From positions 7,374,501 to 7,438,500 of the forward strand of contig NZ_CP018632.1 of the NCBI RefSeq assembly GCF_002215215.1: a stretch of 64,000 nt of DNA, read 5' to 3'. Below the pieces are notes generated by a model. That model was not told the DNA's origin and searched no databases. It saw only the letters and a program-made list of their open reading frames with translations. The position numbers and the translations under genes were made by a program. Below, one piece after another: positions 6,100 through 51,223 of the stretch. Within the stretch, counting starts at the first letter, position 1. Each line of letters begins with the position of its first letter. Source of the DNA: Granulosicoccus antarcticus IMCC3135 (GTDB lineage: Bacteria > Pseudomonadota > Gammaproteobacteria > Granulosicoccales > Granulosicoccaceae).

Positions 6100-6918
6100 A
6101 TGAGCCTTGTCTGCATTATCACAGCCCTTCCCGCCGAATCCCGAATCTTCATCGATGCACTGAAACTTCGACATGTGCAGATGCGAGGACTCAGGCTTTA
6201 TGCCAGTGAACAATACTTGTTATTGCAGACCGGTCTGGGGAAGCTGAGAGCCGCGACCGCCACAGGCGCCCTGCTTCATGCACGCCCTGACATCACTGCC
6301 GTGATCAACACCGGTATTGCAGGAGCTGCCGCAGATCTGGGCTCGGTATTCCTGGCACACCAGGTTGTAGACGCTGCCACCGGCGTGCAGTGGTTCCCTC
6401 ATCTGCCCCCGCAGCGCCAGGTTGGCAGAGTACCGACAGCCCGACTACTGACCGTCGATCAACCGGCCAGTGAATACCGTGAGGGGACTTTGTTCGATAT
6501 GGAGGCATCCGGGATCTTCATGGCTGCCAGCAATTGGCTTTCCAACGATTCCATGCACAGCGTCAAGGTGGTATCAGACAATGCCAAGCAACCGCTCACC
6601 GCTTTTGAACCAGCTCAGGCTAACGCCTTGATGCAGGCTTGCCTGCCGGTTGTCATGCAACTGGCCGACTGGCATCACCAATCCGAAAAAGGTGAGGCGA
6701 ACACGCAAAGCCGGGATGCATGCTGCGATGCCATTCATGCAAAGGTCCGCCATACGGTCAGCGATCGCCATCAGCTGGATCGACTGGTGCAGCAATATAC
6801 GACCCTGCTCGGACAAGTGCCGGATCTGGCAACTCTACAGCAGCTGTCCAGTGCCAGTGATGTGCGCAAGCATCTGCAAAACGCGTTGCAAAAAGCGCCC
6901 CTGACCTACGGTAGCTAA
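6100..6918 (+). CDS. Nucleoside phosphorylase/MTA-SAH nucleosidase-like protein
   Basis: 272 residues. The PNP/UDP family fold is indicated by MSLVCIITALPAESRIF at the start (Glu13 matches the catalytic Glu of MTA/SAH nucleosidase), NTGIAGAA for the phosphate/ribose site, FDMEASGIF (ribose-binding Met-Glu) and VVSDNA (the catalytic Asp). MTA/SAH nucleosidases cleave the N-glycosidic bond of 5'-methylthioadenosine, SAH and 5'-deoxyadenosine. A C-terminal tail of about 80 residues beyond the core has no motif I know. The gene sits six bases before a radical SAM gene whose by-product would be 5'-deoxyadenosine. The open frame extends upstream to 5794 but that part overlaps the YbjQ gene antisense and is not protein-like. 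Confidence 0.82.
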   Translation: MSLVCIITALPAESRIFIDALKLRHVQMRGLRLYASEQYLLLQTGLGKLRAATATGALLHARPDITAVINTGIAGAAADLGSVFLAHQVVDAATGVQWFPHLPPQRQVGRVPTARLLTVDQPASEYREGTLFDMEASGIFMAASNWLSNDSMHSVKVVSDNAKQPLTAFEPAQANALMQACLPVVMQLADWHHQSEKGEANTQSRDACCDAIHAKVRHTVSDRHQLDRLVQQYTTLLGQVPDLATLQQLSSASDVRKHLQNALQKAPLTYGS

Positions 6919-42680: not shown

Positions 42681-45038
42681 GTGCCAGGCACCTCCCACAC
42701 TCTGACACCACGCTGGCGCCGCTGGACGCCGTTGCTGACGGGGATTTGTCTGGTAGGACTGACACTCATCGGCTGGCAAGCTCTGGAACGACATAGGCAA
42801 AACGAACTCAGCAATGCTGCATCCGTAGCCGGCGGATGGATGGCAGTTGCCGTCACCAGAGACCTGCAAGCACGCATTGCCACCCTGGAAAAGCTGGCTG
42901 AGCGATGGCCAGCTGGCTATACACCGGACAAAAATCGCCCGGGGATCGATTCCTTGATAGCACTACCCGGCTTTCAAACCCTTGGATGGGTCGATGAATC
43001 CCATACCGTCCTGCAACTGAACCCGGTGACGAGCGATGGGGCCACGCCACCTCGCGCTCTGGCCACCCCTTCTGCAATCATAGAAGCGGCCATGTCTGCA
43101 ATCGGCGAACAACAACATCTGACGGTGTCCGAGCCCTTCCTGCTCGACAACGGAAAGCCCGCACTCGCCTTCTTTGCACGAGTAGAACAAGGCGCTGGAC
43201 TACTGATGGCCGAACTCGAGCTGGCAGACTGGCTTGACAGTTTGTTGCTTGGAGACACCCGTGGGCTCACCTATAGTCGGGTATTACTCCAGGATCAACA
43301 GGTTTACGAACACACCAGCGACGATGAAGACACGGTGTACGGTCCGCCCGTTACCAATCTGTTTTCTACCTACGCGCTGAGCTGGTCCATTCAAGTCAGG
43401 TCGAGTAACTGGCCACTGGCACGAATGAATTCGATTTTCTCAACAGCCTTCCTGGTCTTGAGTCTGCTTTTATCCGGAATAACAGCCTGGTTCGTCAGAG
43501 TAAAACTAAAGTCGGCTGAGCAAGCAGGAGAGTTGTTCCTCAACACCCAGCAATTGAAATCCTTATGGAAGAGCCTGCCTGGCATGGTCTTTCGAAAGAT
43601 ACTGCGTGACAAAGGTAATCAAAGCCATATGGGCGAAGGATGCCTGACATTGAGCGGGTACGAAAAGGCTGAGTTCGAGCGCGGTAGCATCCTTTGGGAA
43701 GACATTATCAATCCGAACGATCGAGCTCTCAGGCAAGAGCAGATCGCCATGGCAAATGCCAGCAGTCCGAACTATTTTGCCGAATACAGAATTTCCTGCA
43801 AAGACAAGCGCTTGAAATGGGTATTGGAGAGAGGTCGAATGACTTTCGACAAACTCGGCAACAAGACAATCATTGATGGCCTGGTTATTGATGCCACACC
43901 GCGTAAACAGACAGAAACCGCACTGATCGAGGCTGAGGGCTATGCACAGGCAATCGTCGATACAGCCGCTGAAGCAGTCATCACCATCGACGAACTGGGA
44001 GTCATCGAGTCGTTCAACCGGGCCGCGGAAACGATGTTTGGCTATTGTCAGCAAGCCGCTATCGGCATGGAAGTCACGCAATTGATGCCCGAGCATTACC
44101 GCCGGGATCACCAGGGTCATGTCGATCAGCATGTTGCCGAAGCCGGCACCGTCAAGCACATCAGCGGCAGAGAGCTCACCGGCAAACGCAAGGACGGCAC
44201 CATATTCCCGATTCAACTATCCATCAGCGCCTTTCAGGGTCAGCAGGGACGACGGTTCGTTGGGCTATTACGCGATCTGTCAGTACAGCGTGCAGCGGAA
44301 CAGGAAGCCCGGGTGCATCGCGGGCGACTTGCTCATATCGACCGGGTCAACATTCTGGGAGAGATGGCAACCGGCATCGCGCATGAAATCAATCAGCCAC
44401 TGAGCGCCATTTCCATGTACGCACAGTCCTGCCTGCGCTACCTGGATGCGGGTAATCCCAAACCTGACAGACTGCACGAAGCGCTGGAAAAACTCAGCCA
44501 GCAGGCACACCGGGCAGGTGCTGTCATAGAGCATATGCAACAGTTTGCGCGCCAGAGAGACAGCGATCGTGAACAGTTCGATTGCAATAACCTTATCCGC
44601 CAGGTCGTGACTCTGGCAGATTCGGAAGCCGTCATGAGGAATATCGACATGGTGCTTGATCTAGACGCACACCCCTGCTGCGCACTCGGTGACGTTGTTC
44701 AGATCGAACAAGTCATACTGAACCTGCTTCGCAATGGTATGGAGTCGATGGAAAGTGTGAACTGCCAGCATGGAAGACAGATCAGCCTGTCTACCCGGTG
44801 TGATGGCGACACACTCACCGTTGCGGTTTCTGACAGTGGCACAGGAGTATCCGCAGAATCTGCCGACATTTTGTTTCAACCCTTCAAATCCACCAAAAAG
44901 ATGGGCATGGGCGTTGGCCTGACCATTTGCCAATCCATTGTTCAGGCACACGGTGGCGAACTGGGTTTTAGTAATAACAAGGATCACGGTGCAACCTTCC
45001 AGTTCACCTTGCCGAATTTTTCAACGGAAAAAACATGA
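42681..45038 (+). CDS. FixL/TodS-like sensor histidine kinase with periplasmic domain and PAS domains
   Basis: 785 residues from a GTG. Spans near 17-36 and 252-274 enclose a periplasmic domain of about 210 residues (weakly CHASE-like). A first PAS (about 290-405) and a second PAS (about 420-535) follow, then HisKA with His568 (GIAHEINQPLSAI) and an HATPase domain (NLLRNGMESM, DSGTGVS, GMGVGLTIC). The second PAS aligns without gaps to FixL of Bradyrhizobium over MPEHYRRDHQG...ISGRELTGKRKDG: His477 falls on the haem ligand and Arg497 on the distal Arg. This is suggestive of oxygen sensing, not proof, because haem-free relatives share parts of the motif. Its stop overlaps the FixJ-like gene by four bases. 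Confidence 0.88.
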   Translation: MPGTSHTLTPRWRRWTPLLTGICLVGLTLIGWQALERHRQNELSNAASVAGGWMAVAVTRDLQARIATLEKLAERWPAGYTPDKNRPGIDSLIALPGFQTLGWVDESHTVLQLNPVTSDGATPPRALATPSAIIEAAMSAIGEQQHLTVSEPFLLDNGKPALAFFARVEQGAGLLMAELELADWLDSLLLGDTRGLTYSRVLLQDQQVYEHTSDDEDTVYGPPVTNLFSTYALSWSIQVRSSNWPLARMNSIFSTAFLVLSLLLSGITAWFVRVKLKSAEQAGELFLNTQQLKSLWKSLPGMVFRKILRDKGNQSHMGEGCLTLSGYEKAEFERGSILWEDIINPNDRALRQEQIAMANASSPNYFAEYRISCKDKRLKWVLERGRMTFDKLGNKTIIDGLVIDATPRKQTETALIEAEGYAQAIVDTAAEAVITIDELGVIESFNRAAETMFGYCQQAAIGMEVTQLMPEHYRRDHQGHVDQHVAEAGTVKHISGRELTGKRKDGTIFPIQLSISAFQGQQGRRFVGLLRDLSVQRAAEQEARVHRGRLAHIDRVNILGEMATGIAHEINQPLSAISMYAQSCLRYLDAGNPKPDRLHEALEKLSQQAHRAGAVIEHMQQFARQRDSDREQFDCNNLIRQVVTLADSEAVMRNIDMVLDLDAHPCCALGDVVQIEQVILNLLRNGMESMESVNCQHGRQISLSTRCDGDTLTVAVSDSGTGVSAESADILFQPFKSTKKMGMGVGLTICQSIVQAHGGELGFSNNKDHGATFQFTLPNFSTEKT

Positions 45039-45658
45039 ACACAAGCACTCAACTCGTCTTCATTGTGGACGACGATGAAGCGGTTCGCGACTCGATGAGC
45101 ATGTTGCTGGACACCATCGATATTGCCCATCAATGCTTCGGCTCAGCGGCAGAGTTTCTGGACTTCTACGATGGCAGTCAACGAGGTTGTCTGGTATTGG
45201 ACATTCGCATGCCGGGCATGAACGGCCTGGAGCTACAGAAAGAATTGAATCGACGCGAGGCATTACTGCCCATCATCTTCATCACGGGTCACGGCGATAT
45301 TCCCATGGCGGTCGATGCCATGCGTAACGGTGCTCTGGATTTCATGCGCAAACCCATTCGCGAACAGGACCTGCTGGACAGAATTCAGCAAGCTCTCAGC
45401 TATGAAGCTGGCGAGCGTAGCAATCGGGCGACGAGTGAAAATTTGAAAAACCTGATTGCAACCTTGACACTAAAAGAGCATGAAGTTTTCAAGCGTGTCG
45501 CCGATGGCCAGGCAAACAAGGTCATCGCTCTGGAACTGGGTGTCAGTGAACGAACCGTTGAGGTGCATCGGGCGCATGTCATGCAAAAACTGTGTGTCCG
45601 CTCTCTGGCTGATCTTGTCAGAATCAATCTACTAAGCAGTGGTCAGCTTGCGGGCTGA
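45035..45658 (+). CDS. FixJ-family response regulator
   Basis: 207 residues. Receiver with the acidic pocket VDDDEA, phosphoacceptor Asp56 in LVLDIRMPGMNG, Thr in FITGHGDIPMAV and Lys in MRKPI; then a LuxR/FixJ helix-turn-helix (LTLKEHEVFKRVADGQANKVIALELGVSERTVEVHR). The spelling IPMAVDAMRNGALDF is the FixJ/TodT group signature. It is coupled to the kinase by an ATGA overlap. Targets cannot be seen; the zinc alcohol dehydrogenase 0.6 kb downstream is a candidate. Confidence 0.93.
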   Translation: MNTSTQLVFIVDDDEAVRDSMSMLLDTIDIAHQCFGSAAEFLDFYDGSQRGCLVLDIRMPGMNGLELQKELNRREALLPIIFITGHGDIPMAVDAMRNGALDFMRKPIREQDLLDRIQQALSYEAGERSNRATSENLKNLIATLTLKEHEVFKRVADGQANKVIALELGVSERTVEVHRAHVMQKLCVRSLADLVRINLLSSGQLAG

Positions 45659-45724
45659 GAACACCGGGTCCGAATCACTTCTACGTAAAATCCCTTATAT
45701 TCATGAAGCGATGCTCTGGTGACA

Positions 45725-46153
45725 ATGAGCAGACAGCCGGGGGAGCCGGTGGCCAGGCACGTCTCCATGCGAGAATCAGAACACTTTACGGTCTATGTCA
45801 TAGACCCCGACCCTGCCATACGTGACAGCGTAGAGCTATTGCTCGAAAGCGGTACAGTTGACGTACTGGGTTTTGAAAACGCGAAGGCTTTTCTCTCACA
45901 ATACACAGATAAATCAGCGTGCTGCCTTCTGGTAGAAAACGCTCTACCGGATATCAATGGCATGAAACTGATATCGGACATCCGCAAATCCGGAAGCGCA
46001 ATACCCATTGCGCTCATGACCAATTCCACTGATCAGGGCCTTGCCCCTCTGGCTGCACAACTGGGTATCAACTGCATCATGCGCAAACCCTTGCGCAGTC
46101 AACCTCTGCTGGATCAGGTAGAAATCATGCGTCTCTCGGCAAAGAGCGACTGA
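45725..46153 (+). CDS. Stand-alone receiver-like protein lacking the phosphoacceptor Asp (Asp to Glu)
   Basis: 142 residues, a single receiver domain (about 22-135) with a short tail and no output domain. Compared with the adjacent FixJ-like receiver it keeps the acidic Asp pair only in part (VIDPDPAIRDS), the Thr (LMTNSTD) and the Lys (MRKPL), but the phosphoacceptor position reads LLVENALPDINGMKL: Glu71 instead of Asp. Glu at this place often mimics the phosphorylated form. The start may be the ATG at 45725, the GTG six bases before, or an ATG at 45767. It follows the FixJ-like gene after about 65 bases on the same strand, so it may modulate this two-component system. Confidence 0.85.
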   Translation: MSRQPGEPVARHVSMRESEHFTVYVIDPDPAIRDSVELLLESGTVDVLGFENAKAFLSQYTDKSACCLLVENALPDINGMKLISDIRKSGSAIPIALMTNSTDQGLAPLAAQLGINCIMRKPLRSQPLLDQVEIMRLSAKSD

Positions 46154-46273
46154 ACAAGCCATTAAGTACTGAGGTAACACTGCCCGCTCTACGTGTTTTC
46201 CACAATTTTCAAAAGAATTCTTCGGCCCCATAATCACCCATCATTCAACCTGCTTGCAAAAGGTATTTGCGCC

Positions 46274-47290
46274 ATGAAAATGAAGGCCGCTGTTGTCCGT
46301 GAGTTTGGTGCTCCACTGAGTATCGAAGAAGTTGATCGTCCGCAAGCTACCGACGGTCTGGTCGTGGTCAAGGTTGAGGCATGCGGCGTTTGCCACACCG
46401 ACTTGCATGCCGTCGAAGGTGACTGGCCGGTCAAACCACAACTTCCCTTTATTCCCGGACATGAAGGCGTCGGTGTCGTCGTCGAGTGCGGCAAGGGCGT
46501 CACCTCTGTCAAGGAAGGTGACCGTGTCGGCGTACCCTGGCTCTACAGCGCCTGTGGGCATTGCAAATATTGCCTCAGCGGATGGGAGACGTTATGCCAA
46601 CAGCAGGTCAACGCCGGCTACTCAGTCAATGGCAGTTTCGCTGAATACGTACTGGCCGATCCCAACTACGTCGGCCATATACCCGACGGTCTGGATTCAG
46701 CAGCCGTCGCACCCATTCTCTGCGCGGGTGTAACGGTTTACAAAGGCTTGAAAGAAACCGACACCAAACCTGGCGATACCGTTGTCATATCGGGCATCGG
46801 TGGCCTGGGTCATCTGGCAGTTCAGTATGCCAAGGCGATGGGCTTGACCGTTATTGCCGTGGATATTGCTGAAAGCAAGTTGAAGCTTGCCACCGCGATG
46901 GGTGCAGACTGGACCATTGATGCGAGCAAGAAAGACCCGGCTGAAGAAATTCAGAAAGCCATTGGCGGCGCCGATGGGGTTCTGGTCACAGCCGTATCCC
47001 CAGTCGCCTTCAGTCAGGCCGTGGCAATGCTCTCCAGACGTGGCACTCTGGCGCTGGTTGGATTGCCGCCAGGTACATTCGATCTGAGTATCTTCGATAC
47101 GGTGCTGAATCGCAAAACCATTCGCGGCTCCATTGTCGGTACCCGCATTGATCTTGCCGAGAGCCTGCAGTTTGTTGCCCGAGGACAAGTCAAAACCCAC
47201 TATACCGTTGACTCTCTCGACAATATTAACGCCATTTTCGACAAGATGCGAGCCGGAAACATAGACGGTCGAGTTGTATTGACTATCTAA
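46274..47290 (+). CDS. adhP: Zinc-dependent alcohol dehydrogenase (AdhP/AdhA type)
   Basis: 338 residues, the usual length. Catalytic zinc ligands in ACGVCHTD and PGHEGVG, structural zinc Cys-x2-Cys-x2-Cys-x7-Cys in [15 protein letters not shown], and the NAD site [15 protein letters not shown] followed by an Asp (AVDIAESK), favouring NAD over NADP. AdhA-type enzymes interconvert ethanol and acetaldehyde and are often induced at low oxygen in pseudomonads. The open frame extends upstream, but the ATG at 46274 gives the typical [12 protein letters not shown] start. I see no FNR/Anr-like TTGAT-N4-ATCAA site before it. Confidence 0.95.
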
Positions 47291-47406
47291 CAGCCCTCAA
47301 GAGGGAGGACTACCGAACGCCTGTTCAACATTCATCTGGCGTTGCCGATAGTAGACATACCGGCCCTGTTCACCGGTACAAATGGCTATTGGGGAGTTGG
47401 TTTGAC

Positions 47407-49341
47407 GTGTCACTGAATCAGAAAGTTGCCATGATCGTGGTGCTCGTCTTTGCGCTCTCCGGTGCCGCTAGCCTGGTCGTCCAACAGAGAATGATCATGC
47501 CCAGCTTTGTCTCGCTTGAGCGAGACACCGCCGAGAAAGACATTCAACGGGTTCTCGAAGGCATCGGACGTGAGCTCAATCAGATAGGGCCCTCGGTATC
47601 GGATTGGGCCTCATGGACCGATACCTATCAGTACGCAAACGGCGAATACCCAGAATACGTAGCCGACAATCTCGATCTGGACAGTACCATGTCCGCTCTT
47701 GAGATCAATTTCATGGGCCTGTTCAAAATGGACGGCTCCGTTCTGTGGAATCGAGGCTGGAACCTGGACACAAACTCGCTTCTCGACCTGGGAGCACTGA
47801 CGGAAGGCTCCCTGTCACCGGAGCATCCCTTGATGCAAATCGCCAGCATTGAGAGTGATGTGTCTGGCATCATCAATACCGCTGTTGCGCCATTGCTGGT
47901 GGTGGCAAAGCCCATCTTGACCAGCGACGGTAAGGGGCCACCTGCTGGTGTGTTCATCATGGGACGCTTCTTCAACGATGCGGCGATAACACGCCTCTCA
48001 GAACAAACTAGACTCGATGTCACACTCGGTACACTTTCTCAGGCAGTCAAGGACTCCACGGCAATCAACACGACGGGCCTGGTACACAATATGCCATTAC
48101 TGGAAGAGCGAGCCGATGAGTGGCTGGGCAGTGCACAGCTGCGCGATTTGTATGGCAAGCCTATCCTTGCCGTTCAGGTAAGTACACCGCGCCATATTTC
48201 TTCACAGGGCCGTTCGGCGGTCAATATGGCACTACTCTCACTGCTTGTCACCGGCGTGTTCACCATGATCGTATTGTGGCTGGCGCTGCAGCGCGTACTG
48301 CTCAAACCACTGAAAGTACTGGCGGATCATGCACAGCAAGTGGGAGCCAGTGACGATCTTCACACCCAGTTGAAACTCAACCGCCATGACGAGATTGGCG
48401 CCTTGGCTGATAACTTCGATCAGATGGTGGAAAACCTTGCGCTGGCTCGTCGAAAGATCGTCGATCAATCATACCGTTCCGGCGTTGCCGAAATGGCCAG
48501 CGGCGTTTTGCACAATATCGGCAACGCCATTACACCGTTGATGGTAAAGCTTGAAAACCTTGCAGGCGAAATCAGGAAATCGCCCAAAGCTGAAATCAGA
48601 CAGGCAGTAACAGAACTGGAGAATACGACTACGCCGCAAGATCGCCGAGTCGATTTATCACGCTTTGTAGAGCTTGCCGGTGTGGAACTGGCTGAGCTGT
48701 GCGAACGCGGTCTCAACGATGTAAACCGTGCCGTTAGCCAGGTAGGCAATATACGCGATATCCTGAGTGATCAAGAGCGAGTGAGTCGATCGGCACGAGT
48801 ACTTGAGCCGGTCGATGTCGGCAGTCTGATCAGTGATGCTGCATCCACGCTGATCGAAAGTGGCCATGACACACTGCAGGTTATTATCGATGCCAGTGTC
48901 AGCGATTGCGGATACTGCTCAGGTGCCAGAGCTGCATTACAACAAGTGATCAACAACATCCTGATCAATGCTGCAGAGGCGATGGAAGCTCCCGACCAAC
49001 AGGATGGAAACTTGCGAATCAGTGCTATGGCAAAAGAGTGTGATGGCAAACGCTGCATCAGCTATCGCTTTGATGACGATGGCGTCGGCATTGAGGCGGC
49101 ACACTGGAACGACATTTTTCAACGCGGCTTCAGCACAAAGAACCGTGATGGTTCCGGATATGGACTGCACTGGAGTGCTAATACGCTACAAGCTTTGGGC
49201 GGCTCATTGCACCTGTTACAAGACGATGATCATTGCGGAGCTAGTTTCGAGATGACACTGCCTGTCGCAACTCCGGCTGGTAACAGTGCGAACGATGCAG
49301 AAACTGGTGCCGTTTTCCCGGCTACCGGCACGGGAAACTAG
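47407..49341 (+). CDS. CHASE4 sensor histidine kinase
   Basis: About 644 residues. A transmembrane start (MIVVLVFALSGAASLVVQ), a periplasmic CHASE4 domain with SDWASWTDTYQYANGEYPEYV, a second span near 285-305, a HAMP region (LKPLKVLADHAQQV), then a kinase core whose H-box is GVLHNIGNAITP (His about 369), a less common spelling in place of HExRNPL, and an HATPase domain (NILINAAEAM, DDDGVGI, GYGLHWSANTL). A GTG at 47407 has GGGGAG ten bases before it; a TTG at 47389 is the alternative. The stop is four bases before the next gene's ATG, so it pairs with that receiver-GGDEF-EAL protein. Confidence 0.9.
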   Translation: MSLNQKVAMIVVLVFALSGAASLVVQQRMIMPSFVSLERDTAEKDIQRVLEGIGRELNQIGPSVSDWASWTDTYQYANGEYPEYVADNLDLDSTMSALEINFMGLFKMDGSVLWNRGWNLDTNSLLDLGALTEGSLSPEHPLMQIASIESDVSGIINTAVAPLLVVAKPILTSDGKGPPAGVFIMGRFFNDAAITRLSEQTRLDVTLGTLSQAVKDSTAINTTGLVHNMPLLEERADEWLGSAQLRDLYGKPILAVQVSTPRHISSQGRSAVNMALLSLLVTGVFTMIVLWLALQRVLLKPLKVLADHAQQVGASDDLHTQLKLNRHDEIGALADNFDQMVENLALARRKIVDQSYRSGVAEMASGVLHNIGNAITPLMVKLENLAGEIRKSPKAEIRQAVTELENTTTPQDRRVDLSRFVELAGVELAELCERGLNDVNRAVSQVGNIRDILSDQERVSRSARVLEPVDVGSLISDAASTLIESGHDTLQVIIDASVSDCGYCSGARAALQQVINNILINAAEAMEAPDQQDGNLRISAMAKECDGKRCISYRFDDDGVGIEAAHWNDIFQRGFSTKNRDGSGYGLHWSANTLQALGGSLHLLQDDDHCGASFEMTLPVATPAGNSANDAETGAVFPATGTGN

Positions 49342-49345
49342 AGCT

Positions 49346-51223
49346 ATGTCAGAGAGTGAGCCTGCTGTGATTCGCGTGTTGATCGCCGATGATGAACCGG
49401 CGGTGCTGGAAGCCTACCGGGATATTCTGTGCTCACCTACGGCACCGTGCAATGCCGAGATCGGAGATCTGCGTTCACGCCTGTTCAGTGCCTCCGCCGA
49501 AAGCATCGGCACGGTAGCTCCTGCAATAGCCAGCCATCAATTCGAACTCACCTGCGTTGCTGATGCGGTTTCGGCGGTGCAGGCCGTTGCTGACAGTATC
49601 GTCTCTGGTCTACCGTTTTCACTCGTGTATCTCGACATGCGAATGCCACCGGGCAAGGATGGCGCCTGGGCCGCCGTGGAGATCCGCAAACTCGATGAGC
49701 GCATTGATATAGTCATCTCGACCGCCTATTCGGATGTGGACCCGATGGCATTGTCACAAAAAGTTCTGCCGGCAGCGAAAATGTTCTATGTGCAGAAACC
49801 CTTTCATCCACACGAGATTCGCCAGCTGGCTCTGGCGATCGGCGAAAAACGTCAGGCCGAAGATCGGATCTGGCGACTAGCCTACTACGACGGGCTGACC
49901 GGATTGCCCAATCGTGAACTTTTTCTGAAACAACTCCATGATGCTATTCAGCAGTCCACTCTAAAAGAACAATCGCTGGCCGTACTCTTCCTTGATCTCA
50001 ACGGATTCAAGCGAATCAACGACACGCTGGGCCACGATGCCGGCGATGATGTCCTGCGAGAAACCGCAAAACGCTTGAACGCCGTGTTGCGCGCAGGTGA
50101 ACACCCCACTGACAGCATTGACTCCAATAGAGTAACAGGCACGGTGGCGCGCTTGGGGGGTGATGAATTCACAGTGCTGATTGAATACCTTGCAGGACCT
50201 GAAGAAGCCATTGGTGTTGCACAGCGGGTACTCGAGACACTGTCCCAGCCCATGATCATTGGTGAGCATAAACTGTTCTCCATTCCCAGTATCGGCATCG
50301 CCAGTTTCCCCGGAGATGCAAGTGATTCTGCCGGTTTGCTCAAATGTGCTGATATGGCGATGTACTTTTCCAAACGATCACTTTCTCAGGAACCACAGCA
50401 CTTCAACGAGACGATGAGCAAGGCAGCTGTCAGCCGGTTGAAAAGGGAAAATGCCTTGCGCGAGGCATTGAACAACGATGAGCTGAGCTTGCATTATCAA
50501 CCCCAGTTACATCTGATTTCAAATGAGCTCATCGGATTTGAGGTCTTGCTACGCTGGCATAATCCGTATCTGGGCGAGGTAGCACCCGATGACTTTATCC
50601 CGATCGCGGAGGAAAACGGCCTGATCATACCTATCGGTGAGTGGGTCTTGCGTACCGCATGCCTACAGGCAAAACAGTGGATTGACAATGGCTTGCATCT
50701 CGACCGCATCGCTGTGAATGTATCGATAGTGCAGTTCGCATTGCCTGATTTTCCAAAAATGGTGCAAGCCATTCTTACTGAAACTGGCTTGGAGCCAGAG
50801 GTGCTGGAGCTGGAGCTCACAGAATCGGTATTGATGCATCAGGTCGACACCGCCGTGCACACATTCAAGCAATTGAAAATCATTGGAGTGCAACTGGCCA
50901 TTGACGACTTTGGTACAGGTTATTCAAGCCTGAACTATTTGAAGCAGTTTCCGATCGATCGACTCAAAATTGACCGATCGTTCACCAGTGCCATTCTGTC
51001 AGATACCAATGATCAAGCAATCGCCGATGCCGTGATTGCCATGGCAGGTCGAATGAACGTTCAAGTGACTGCCGAAGGCGTTGAATCGATTGAGCAGTTG
51101 CAGTTTCTACGCGAAGCTCAGTGTGATGCGGTCCAGGGTTTCCATATTTGCCACCCCATGAAAGTGGTGGATGCCGAACAATATCTGAAAGCGCTGCCCA
51201 ACCGACGACAAGACGCGGCCTGA
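49346..51223 (+). CDS. Response regulator with GGDEF and EAL domains (c-di-GMP turnover)
   Basis: 625 residues. The receiver has VLIADDEPAV, phosphoacceptor Asp97 in LVYLDMRMPPGKDG, and Lys in FYVQKPF; the Asp lies about 40 residues later than usual because of an insert between the first helix and second strand. The GGDEF domain has an intact RLGGDEF, with the inhibitory RxxD read as RVTG, so lost. The EAL domain keeps Glu in GFEVLLRW, NVS, ELTES, IDDFGTGYSSL, KIDRSF and AEGVES, so phosphodiesterase activity is likely. The ATG at 49346 is four bases after the CHASE4 kinase stop. Together they form a complete two-component c-di-GMP switch. Confidence 0.92.
   Translation: MSESEPAVIRVLIADDEPAVLEAYRDILCSPTAPCNAEIGDLRSRLFSASAESIGTVAPAIASHQFELTCVADAVSAVQAVADSIVSGLPFSLVYLDMRMPPGKDGAWAAVEIRKLDERIDIVISTAYSDVDPMALSQKVLPAAKMFYVQKPFHPHEIRQLALAIGEKRQAEDRIWRLAYYDGLTGLPNRELFLKQLHDAIQQSTLKEQSLAVLFLDLNGFKRINDTLGHDAGDDVLRETAKRLNAVLRAGEHPTDSIDSNRVTGTVARLGGDEFTVLIEYLAGPEEAIGVAQRVLETLSQPMIIGEHKLFSIPSIGIASFPGDASDSAGLLKCADMAMYFSKRSLSQEPQHFNETMSKAAVSRLKRENALREALNNDELSLHYQPQLHLISNELIGFEVLLRWHNPYLGEVAPDDFIPIAEENGLIIPIGEWVLRTACLQAKQWIDNGLHLDRIAVNVSIVQFALPDFPKMVQAILTETGLEPEVLELELTESVLMHQVDTAVHTFKQLKIIGVQLAIDDFGTGYSSLNYLKQFPIDRLKIDRSFTSAILSDTNDQAIADAVIAMAGRMNVQVTAEGVESIEQLQFLREAQCDAVQGFHICHPMKVVDAEQYLKALPNRRQDAA

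Follow-up and report, generated by a model that had tools for sequence, protein, structure and literature searches.

Organization of the locus

The window analyzed here, a stretch of 64,000 nucleotides from the Granulosicoccus antarcticus genome (7.78 Mb, one contig), carries a gene for a stand-alone receiver between a FixL/FixJ-type pair and an adhP-type alcohol dehydrogenase gene (Table 1). The presence of such a receiver beside the pair had been predicted, and our analysis confirmed it: the ORF is present, its product covers the whole Pfam Response_reg domain (PF00072; E 4.8e-15, 56.1 bits against a cut-off of 30.2), and a Pfam search found no output domain in the protein. The regulator scores 223.2 bits against the FixJ equivalog NF006900 (cut-off 255) and the kinase 331.6 bits against the Rhizobiales FixL equivalog NF041777 (cut-off 850). 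Both scores are below the cut-offs, and the proteins are therefore called FixJ-like and FixL-like only.

The receiver ORF ends with a stop codon at 46153 and has in-frame start codons at 45719 (GTG), 45725 (ATG) and 45767 (ATG). The true start is probably 45767, because both orthologues described below begin there and the spacing of ~85 bp to an upstream box fits this start only; 45725, the start used in the original prediction, would lie 14 codons too early. Directly after adhP, at 47389-51223 of the window, a CHASE4-HAMP histidine kinase without a HisKA match is followed by an overlapping receiver-GGDEF-EAL protein, forming a second signalling pair.

Table 1. Features of the receiver locus, in window positions
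Feature	Position	Strand	Remarks
fixL-like sensor kinase gene	42681..45038	+	periplasmic-type N-terminal sensor region, two PAS, HisKA, HATPase_c; start codon uncertain
fixJ-like response regulator gene	45035..45658	+	DD/D/T/K intact; LuxR-type HTH; 4-base overlap with fixL
Putative FixJ-type box 5' of pseudo-receiver gene, CTACGTAAAATCCCTTA	45681..45697	+	~85 bp before ATG 45767
Pseudo-receiver gene, 128 aa	45767..46153	+	start set by orthologue starts and box spacing
Pro14 codon CCC, in place of second metal-binding Asp (DD2)	45806..45808	+	alignment with FixJ and orthologues
Glu57 codon GAA, at phospho-acceptor site	45935..45937	+	alignment; Glu71 in the numbering of the original prediction
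Putative FixJ-type box 5' of adhP, CTACGTGTTTTCCA	46189..46202	+	85 bp before ATG 46274
adhP-type zinc alcohol dehydrogenase gene	46274..47290	+	NCBIfam AdhP (NF006940) 364.6 bits, cut-off 344

Conservation and linkage in Granulosicoccus

Among 27 Granulosicoccus genomes, the receiver was found in three (the window's, G024 and G012), and a full-length FixL only in the same three. The gene order in each of them is fixL, fixJ, receiver, adhP. A contig search with the receiver returned the two Granulosicoccus relatives and one weak match only. Glu57 and Pro14 are invariant in both orthologues at 50-52% identity, and the residue losses are therefore not due to chance. A sporadic Asp to Glu mutation is ruled out, since the Glu is fixed in all Granulosicoccus orthologues. 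The original prediction also proposed that the receiver is a third FixLJ component. This was borne out: wherever the receiver occurs, it is linked to the pair. Within the genus, we found neither an Asp in the orthologues nor a loss of linkage, the two findings that the prediction had named as speaking against it.

The receivers evolve faster than the regulators: identity among the three Granulosicoccus genomes is 62% for the receivers and 87% for the FixJs. In one of these loci (L032; G012:C3, ~6582-6691, minus strand), adhP is missing ~95 codons at its 5' end, immediately downstream of the FixJ box and the intergenic region, which reflects either a deletion or an assembly fault.

Residues of the receiver active site

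The AlphaFold model of the receiver (pLDDT 83.9) has TM-scores of 0.83-0.87 to StyR and FixJ, the closest solved structures, and by this model the fold is ordinary. Alignment with the adjoining FixJ upheld the prediction that a Glu replaces the phospho-acceptor Asp while the Thr and Lys are retained. Two further changes had been overlooked. The acidic pair DD reads D-P, with Pro at the second metal-binding position, and the aromatic residue of the Y-T switch (K-3) is Ile. A phosphorylatable receiver has the DD pair, Asp, Thr and Lys; the window receiver has D-P, Glu, Thr and Lys. A pseudo-receiver keeps the fold and has lost at least one key catalytic residue, and all three orthologues have DD2 changed to Pro and the Asp to Glu. 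The phosphosite Asp is retained in 194 of the 198 multi-domain receivers at the same loci. According to a 2025 review, ~80% of bacterial pseudo-receivers have a non-acidic residue at DD2, their typical mark; Asp-less and pseudo-receivers described there share with the window receiver the loss of DD2, the Asp to Glu change and a T+1 residue other than Ala or Gly (PMC12632262). Judged by these residues, the window protein is a pseudo-receiver, predicted neither to be phosphorylated nor to bind metal.

Candidate FixJ boxes

Six intergenic regions were compared, fixJ-receiver and receiver-adhP from the window, G024 and G012. All six contain TACGT and share no other 5-mer; any shared 5-mer arose in 2 of 2000 dinucleotide shuffles. 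TACGT belongs to the longer element BTACGTRNNNYYCM, always on the same strand and 84-99 bp before the next start codon (85-87 bp in five of the six). Within the window this element matches only twice, at 45681 and 46189. Across the complete genome, a narrower pattern, TACGTRWWWTCCM, has three matches, two of them at this locus. Its third match (L206; G000:C1:882002-882014, minus strand) is inside a gene for a GntR/MocR-type aminotransferase-like regulator and is probably due to chance.

FixJ sites in the literature include TAAGTAATTTCCCTTA, from fixK of S. meliloti, and two SELEX consensuses, GTAGTTTCCC and GTAMGTAG (PMC4999443). The window box TACGTAAAATCCCTTA shares 13 of 16 bases with the fixK site; an exact GTAGTTTCCC is present in the G024 box. 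A weight matrix built from the six Granulosicoccus boxes and the S. meliloti site detected comparable sites 5' of the receiver at 17 of 27 further gammaproteobacterial loci (shuffle p at most 0.05), among them G173 with TAGGTATATTCCCTTA; six controls, alphaproteobacterial or unrelated, had none. Scores of at least 9 were reached at 17 of the 27 loci and in 8 of 421 stretches drawn at random from these loci; because the loci are related, the trials are not independent. No FixJ-type box was found upstream of fixL. The fixJ-receiver gap showed no structured RNA (z 1.1), and scans for sigma-70 promoters and terminators stayed near chance. The putative boxes suggest that the receiver, like FixT, is likely made when FixJ is active, and adhP is a probable output gene of the FixLJ-like pair.

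Related receivers in other Gammaproteobacteria

The wider survey combined profile searches with fetched genomic regions. Family f18 was sampled at 100 genomes, and the family and order searches around G176 and G173 covered one genome each. The order fixL, fixJ, stand-alone receiver was found in G176 and G173, which belong to two further families, and in ~25 of the 100 sampled f18 genomes; all are Gammaproteobacteria. A FixL-type kinase lies directly upstream of fixJ in nearly all surveyed loci. In the few loci without a kinase call, the fixJ frame is over-extended or the stretch is short, and the larger region of one (G320) shows the kinase. A search with the FixL sensor region returned other kinases with the sensor; outside the genus, only the G176 kinase is a full counterpart by profile score. 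In the plasmid search, the matches listed were FixJ-like receivers only.

The residues at DD1, DD2, D, T and K read DPETK in Granulosicoccus and G176 and DSESK in G173. In f18 they read EADGK, EAEGK, DPDAK, DPDTK, DSDAK, DPEAK, DPESK, DTESK, EPEAK, DGDSK or DADSK, and three further cases are badly degenerate. DD2 is never acidic in the aligned members. The phosphosite is Asp or Glu, with Ser, Thr or Ala in degenerate members, and at least three D/E changes are seen on the tree. Glu as the family-defining feature is ruled out, since many relatives have Asp. What the family has in common is, as far as these residues predict, the inability to be phosphorylated and not a Glu mimic. Extreme degeneration was observed in f18 loci L012/L153 (G064), L193 (G825) and L194 (G857), where the receiver next to fixJ has neither the phosphosite acid nor the Lys and is still in place.

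In the original prediction, the Glu was viewed as phosphomimetic, a residue that often locks receivers in the active state, and a constitutive partner was one of the roles suggested for the protein. Among Asp-less receivers, Glu is the residue seen most often, and it can act as a mimic of phosphorylation (PMC12632262). The invariant Glu in the three orthologues and the retained Thr and Lys are consistent with such mimicry, as is the Leu at K+2; residues of this class shift CheY to more active conformations. However, the metal site is lost with its second ligand replaced by Pro, the Y-T aromatic residue is gone, and the relatives vary at the phosphosite as described above. Overall, we consider this model improbable. 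Since the loss of DD2 is constant while the phosphosite varies, a Glu lock is unlikely to be the essence of the protein.

A functionless, decaying duplicate of fixJ would also account for the missing catalytic residues and for changes faster than in FixJ. Against such decay, the ORF is open with a putative box upstream, the gene is retained in several families, an intact fold is predicted (pLDDT 84) and surface patches are invariant, all of which makes it very improbable. A recent duplication of the adjoining fixJ is not favoured either; the trees place the Granulosicoccus receivers outside every FixJ, although long branches weaken this placement. A single origin of the gammaproteobacterial pseudo-receivers is compatible with the trees (AU p 0.50), which give it no positive support.

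Predicted partner of the receiver

Conservation on the receiver surface points to the kinase. On the Granulosicoccus kinase-facing surface (acidic loop, helix 1 and β5-α5 loop), 20 of 24 positions are invariant, compared with 35 of 91 in the rest of the protein (Fisher p 8e-5); the comparison covers three sequences, and the surface was chosen after seeing the data and includes active-site positions. This surface was defined by reference to HK853-RR468. At the helix-1 positions altered in a rewired RR468 (PDB 4jav), the receivers have A-I-S-L and the FixJ of each locus has A-V/I-S-L. This match of specificity residues favours docking on the same kinase. In the window lineage, the receiver is 52-57% identical to FixJ in helix 1 and the KP loop, compared with 26-27% in α4-β5.

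We therefore lean towards a receiver that is a FixJ-induced negative-feedback regulator docking on FixL, FixT-like in its working but outside the FixT sequence family. In this mechanism, phosphorylated FixJ would activate transcription of the pseudo-receiver gene and adhP through the putative boxes 85 bp 5' of each start. The pseudo-receiver would then dock on the FixL-like kinase with its FixJ-like helix 1 and β5-α5 loop. The docked protein would lower kinase output, closing a negative feedback loop as with FixT. We infer all three steps, the binding of this FixJ to the box, the binding of the receiver to FixL and the inhibitory effect. Titration of the kinase was among the options in the original prediction and is the best supported of them.

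Alternatively, the pseudo-receiver could heterodimerize with FixJ through the α4-β5-α5 face and block or modify DNA binding, without acting on the kinase. The f18 receivers have a helix 1 that differs from that of FixJ, and the surface they share with it is α4-β5, the FixJ dimer face; α4 and β5 are the segments most shared with the adjoining FixJ (56-72% and 40-80%) and are among the most conserved within groups. A precedent is the WhiI/BldM heterodimer (PMC12632262). The window lineage argues the other way, with the low α4-β5 identity given above and an Ile in place of the K-3 aromatic residue of the FixJ face. As a general account of the receiver this is rather unlikely, but the shared face suggests that heterodimers with FixJ are a serious rival, at least in f18. 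Thus, the binding partner may differ in f18.

The receiver could also be a connector that passes FixJ-dependent output away from its own pair, to another kinase or protein elsewhere. Such a role would suit the rapid change seen outside the docking surface (62% identity among the receivers, 87% among the FixJs), whereas the strict co-occurrence with this FixL and the shared helix-1 specificity residues speak against it, and we regard a connector as quite improbable.

Predicted signal of the kinase

The second PAS domain of the kinase (43920-44315 of the window) has the FixL haem PAS structures as its best match (E 2e-20), and the positions of the haem His and its partner Arg are kept. For these reasons, oxygen sensing by the Granulosicoccus kinase, controlling an alcohol dehydrogenase, is plausible. 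The G176 kinase has no second, haem-type PAS, so oxygen is not the common signal of the family.

Discussion

The original prediction regarded such a third FixLJ component as new. However, FixT of Sinorhizobium and Caulobacter is already known as a single-receiver third member; it is receiver-like, induced by FixLJ and not phosphorylated, and it inhibits FixL autophosphorylation (PMC7078487). FixT has been reported to lack the acidic pair (PMC9430884). On S. meliloti pSymA, we found a 115-residue degenerate receiver ORF 99 bp after fixJ, in which VVAADQ replaces the acidic pair. The record is unannotated there, and we take the ORF as FixT by its position and features. Like FixT, the window receiver is single-domain and linked to FixLJ, has lost the acidic pair and is predicted from the boxes to be under FixJ control. 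The S. meliloti ORF likewise lies directly after fixJ. The window receiver differs in its phosphosite, which is Glu here and apparently still Asp in the S. meliloti ORF, in being gammaproteobacterial and in being adjoined by adhP rather than fixK. It also lacks the 4-Cys Fe-S motif of Caulobacter FixT; its only cysteines are Cys66, Cys67 and Cys117, and Cys67 alone is kept in both orthologues. The profile of the window family did not recognize the S. meliloti FixT-like ORF (E 0.037, 7.1 bits). For this reason, the receiver is proposed to work like FixT and is not called FixT.

Two other known proteins are comparable. Osp of Rhodobacter sphaeroides is a pseudo-receiver without the acidic pair that inhibits CckA and is induced by the system it inhibits (PMC9430884). 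It is also a single receiver, but it acts on a hybrid kinase whose gene does not adjoin its own, and it has kept the Asp and lost the Lys. In Bradyrhizobium, a stand-alone receiver gene, bll2758, also directly follows fixJ (PMC9104804, PMC4999443). Four Bradyrhizobium-like genomes (L121, L132, L133 and L134; genus assigned indirectly) have a receiver after fixJ with intact DD, D, T and K. These receivers occupy the same place as the window receiver but form a separate clade.

We found no description of a gammaproteobacterial fixL-fixJ-pseudo-receiver module in the open-access literature. In the sections covered here, the 2025 review takes CmrRST as its main example of a pseudo-receiver sharing an operon with a normal pair, and a FixLJ-linked gammaproteobacterial family does not come up; the review calls the workings of bacterial pseudo-receivers a mystery (PMC12632262). 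Tentatively, the gammaproteobacterial loci may represent an undescribed, widespread module, in which a fast-evolving, FixJ-induced and never-phosphorylated receiver would set the gain of the pair, and in which different lineages would have shifted its contact surface, so that helix 1 meets the kinase in some and α4-β5 the regulator in others.

A partner kinase, a partner regulator and probable regulatory sites lie within ~4 kb, an arrangement that recurs in distant lineages. This clustering makes the binding, the feedback and the role of Glu or Asp at the phosphosite directly testable. Our findings suggest that feedback of the FixT kind extends beyond the Alphaproteobacteria.
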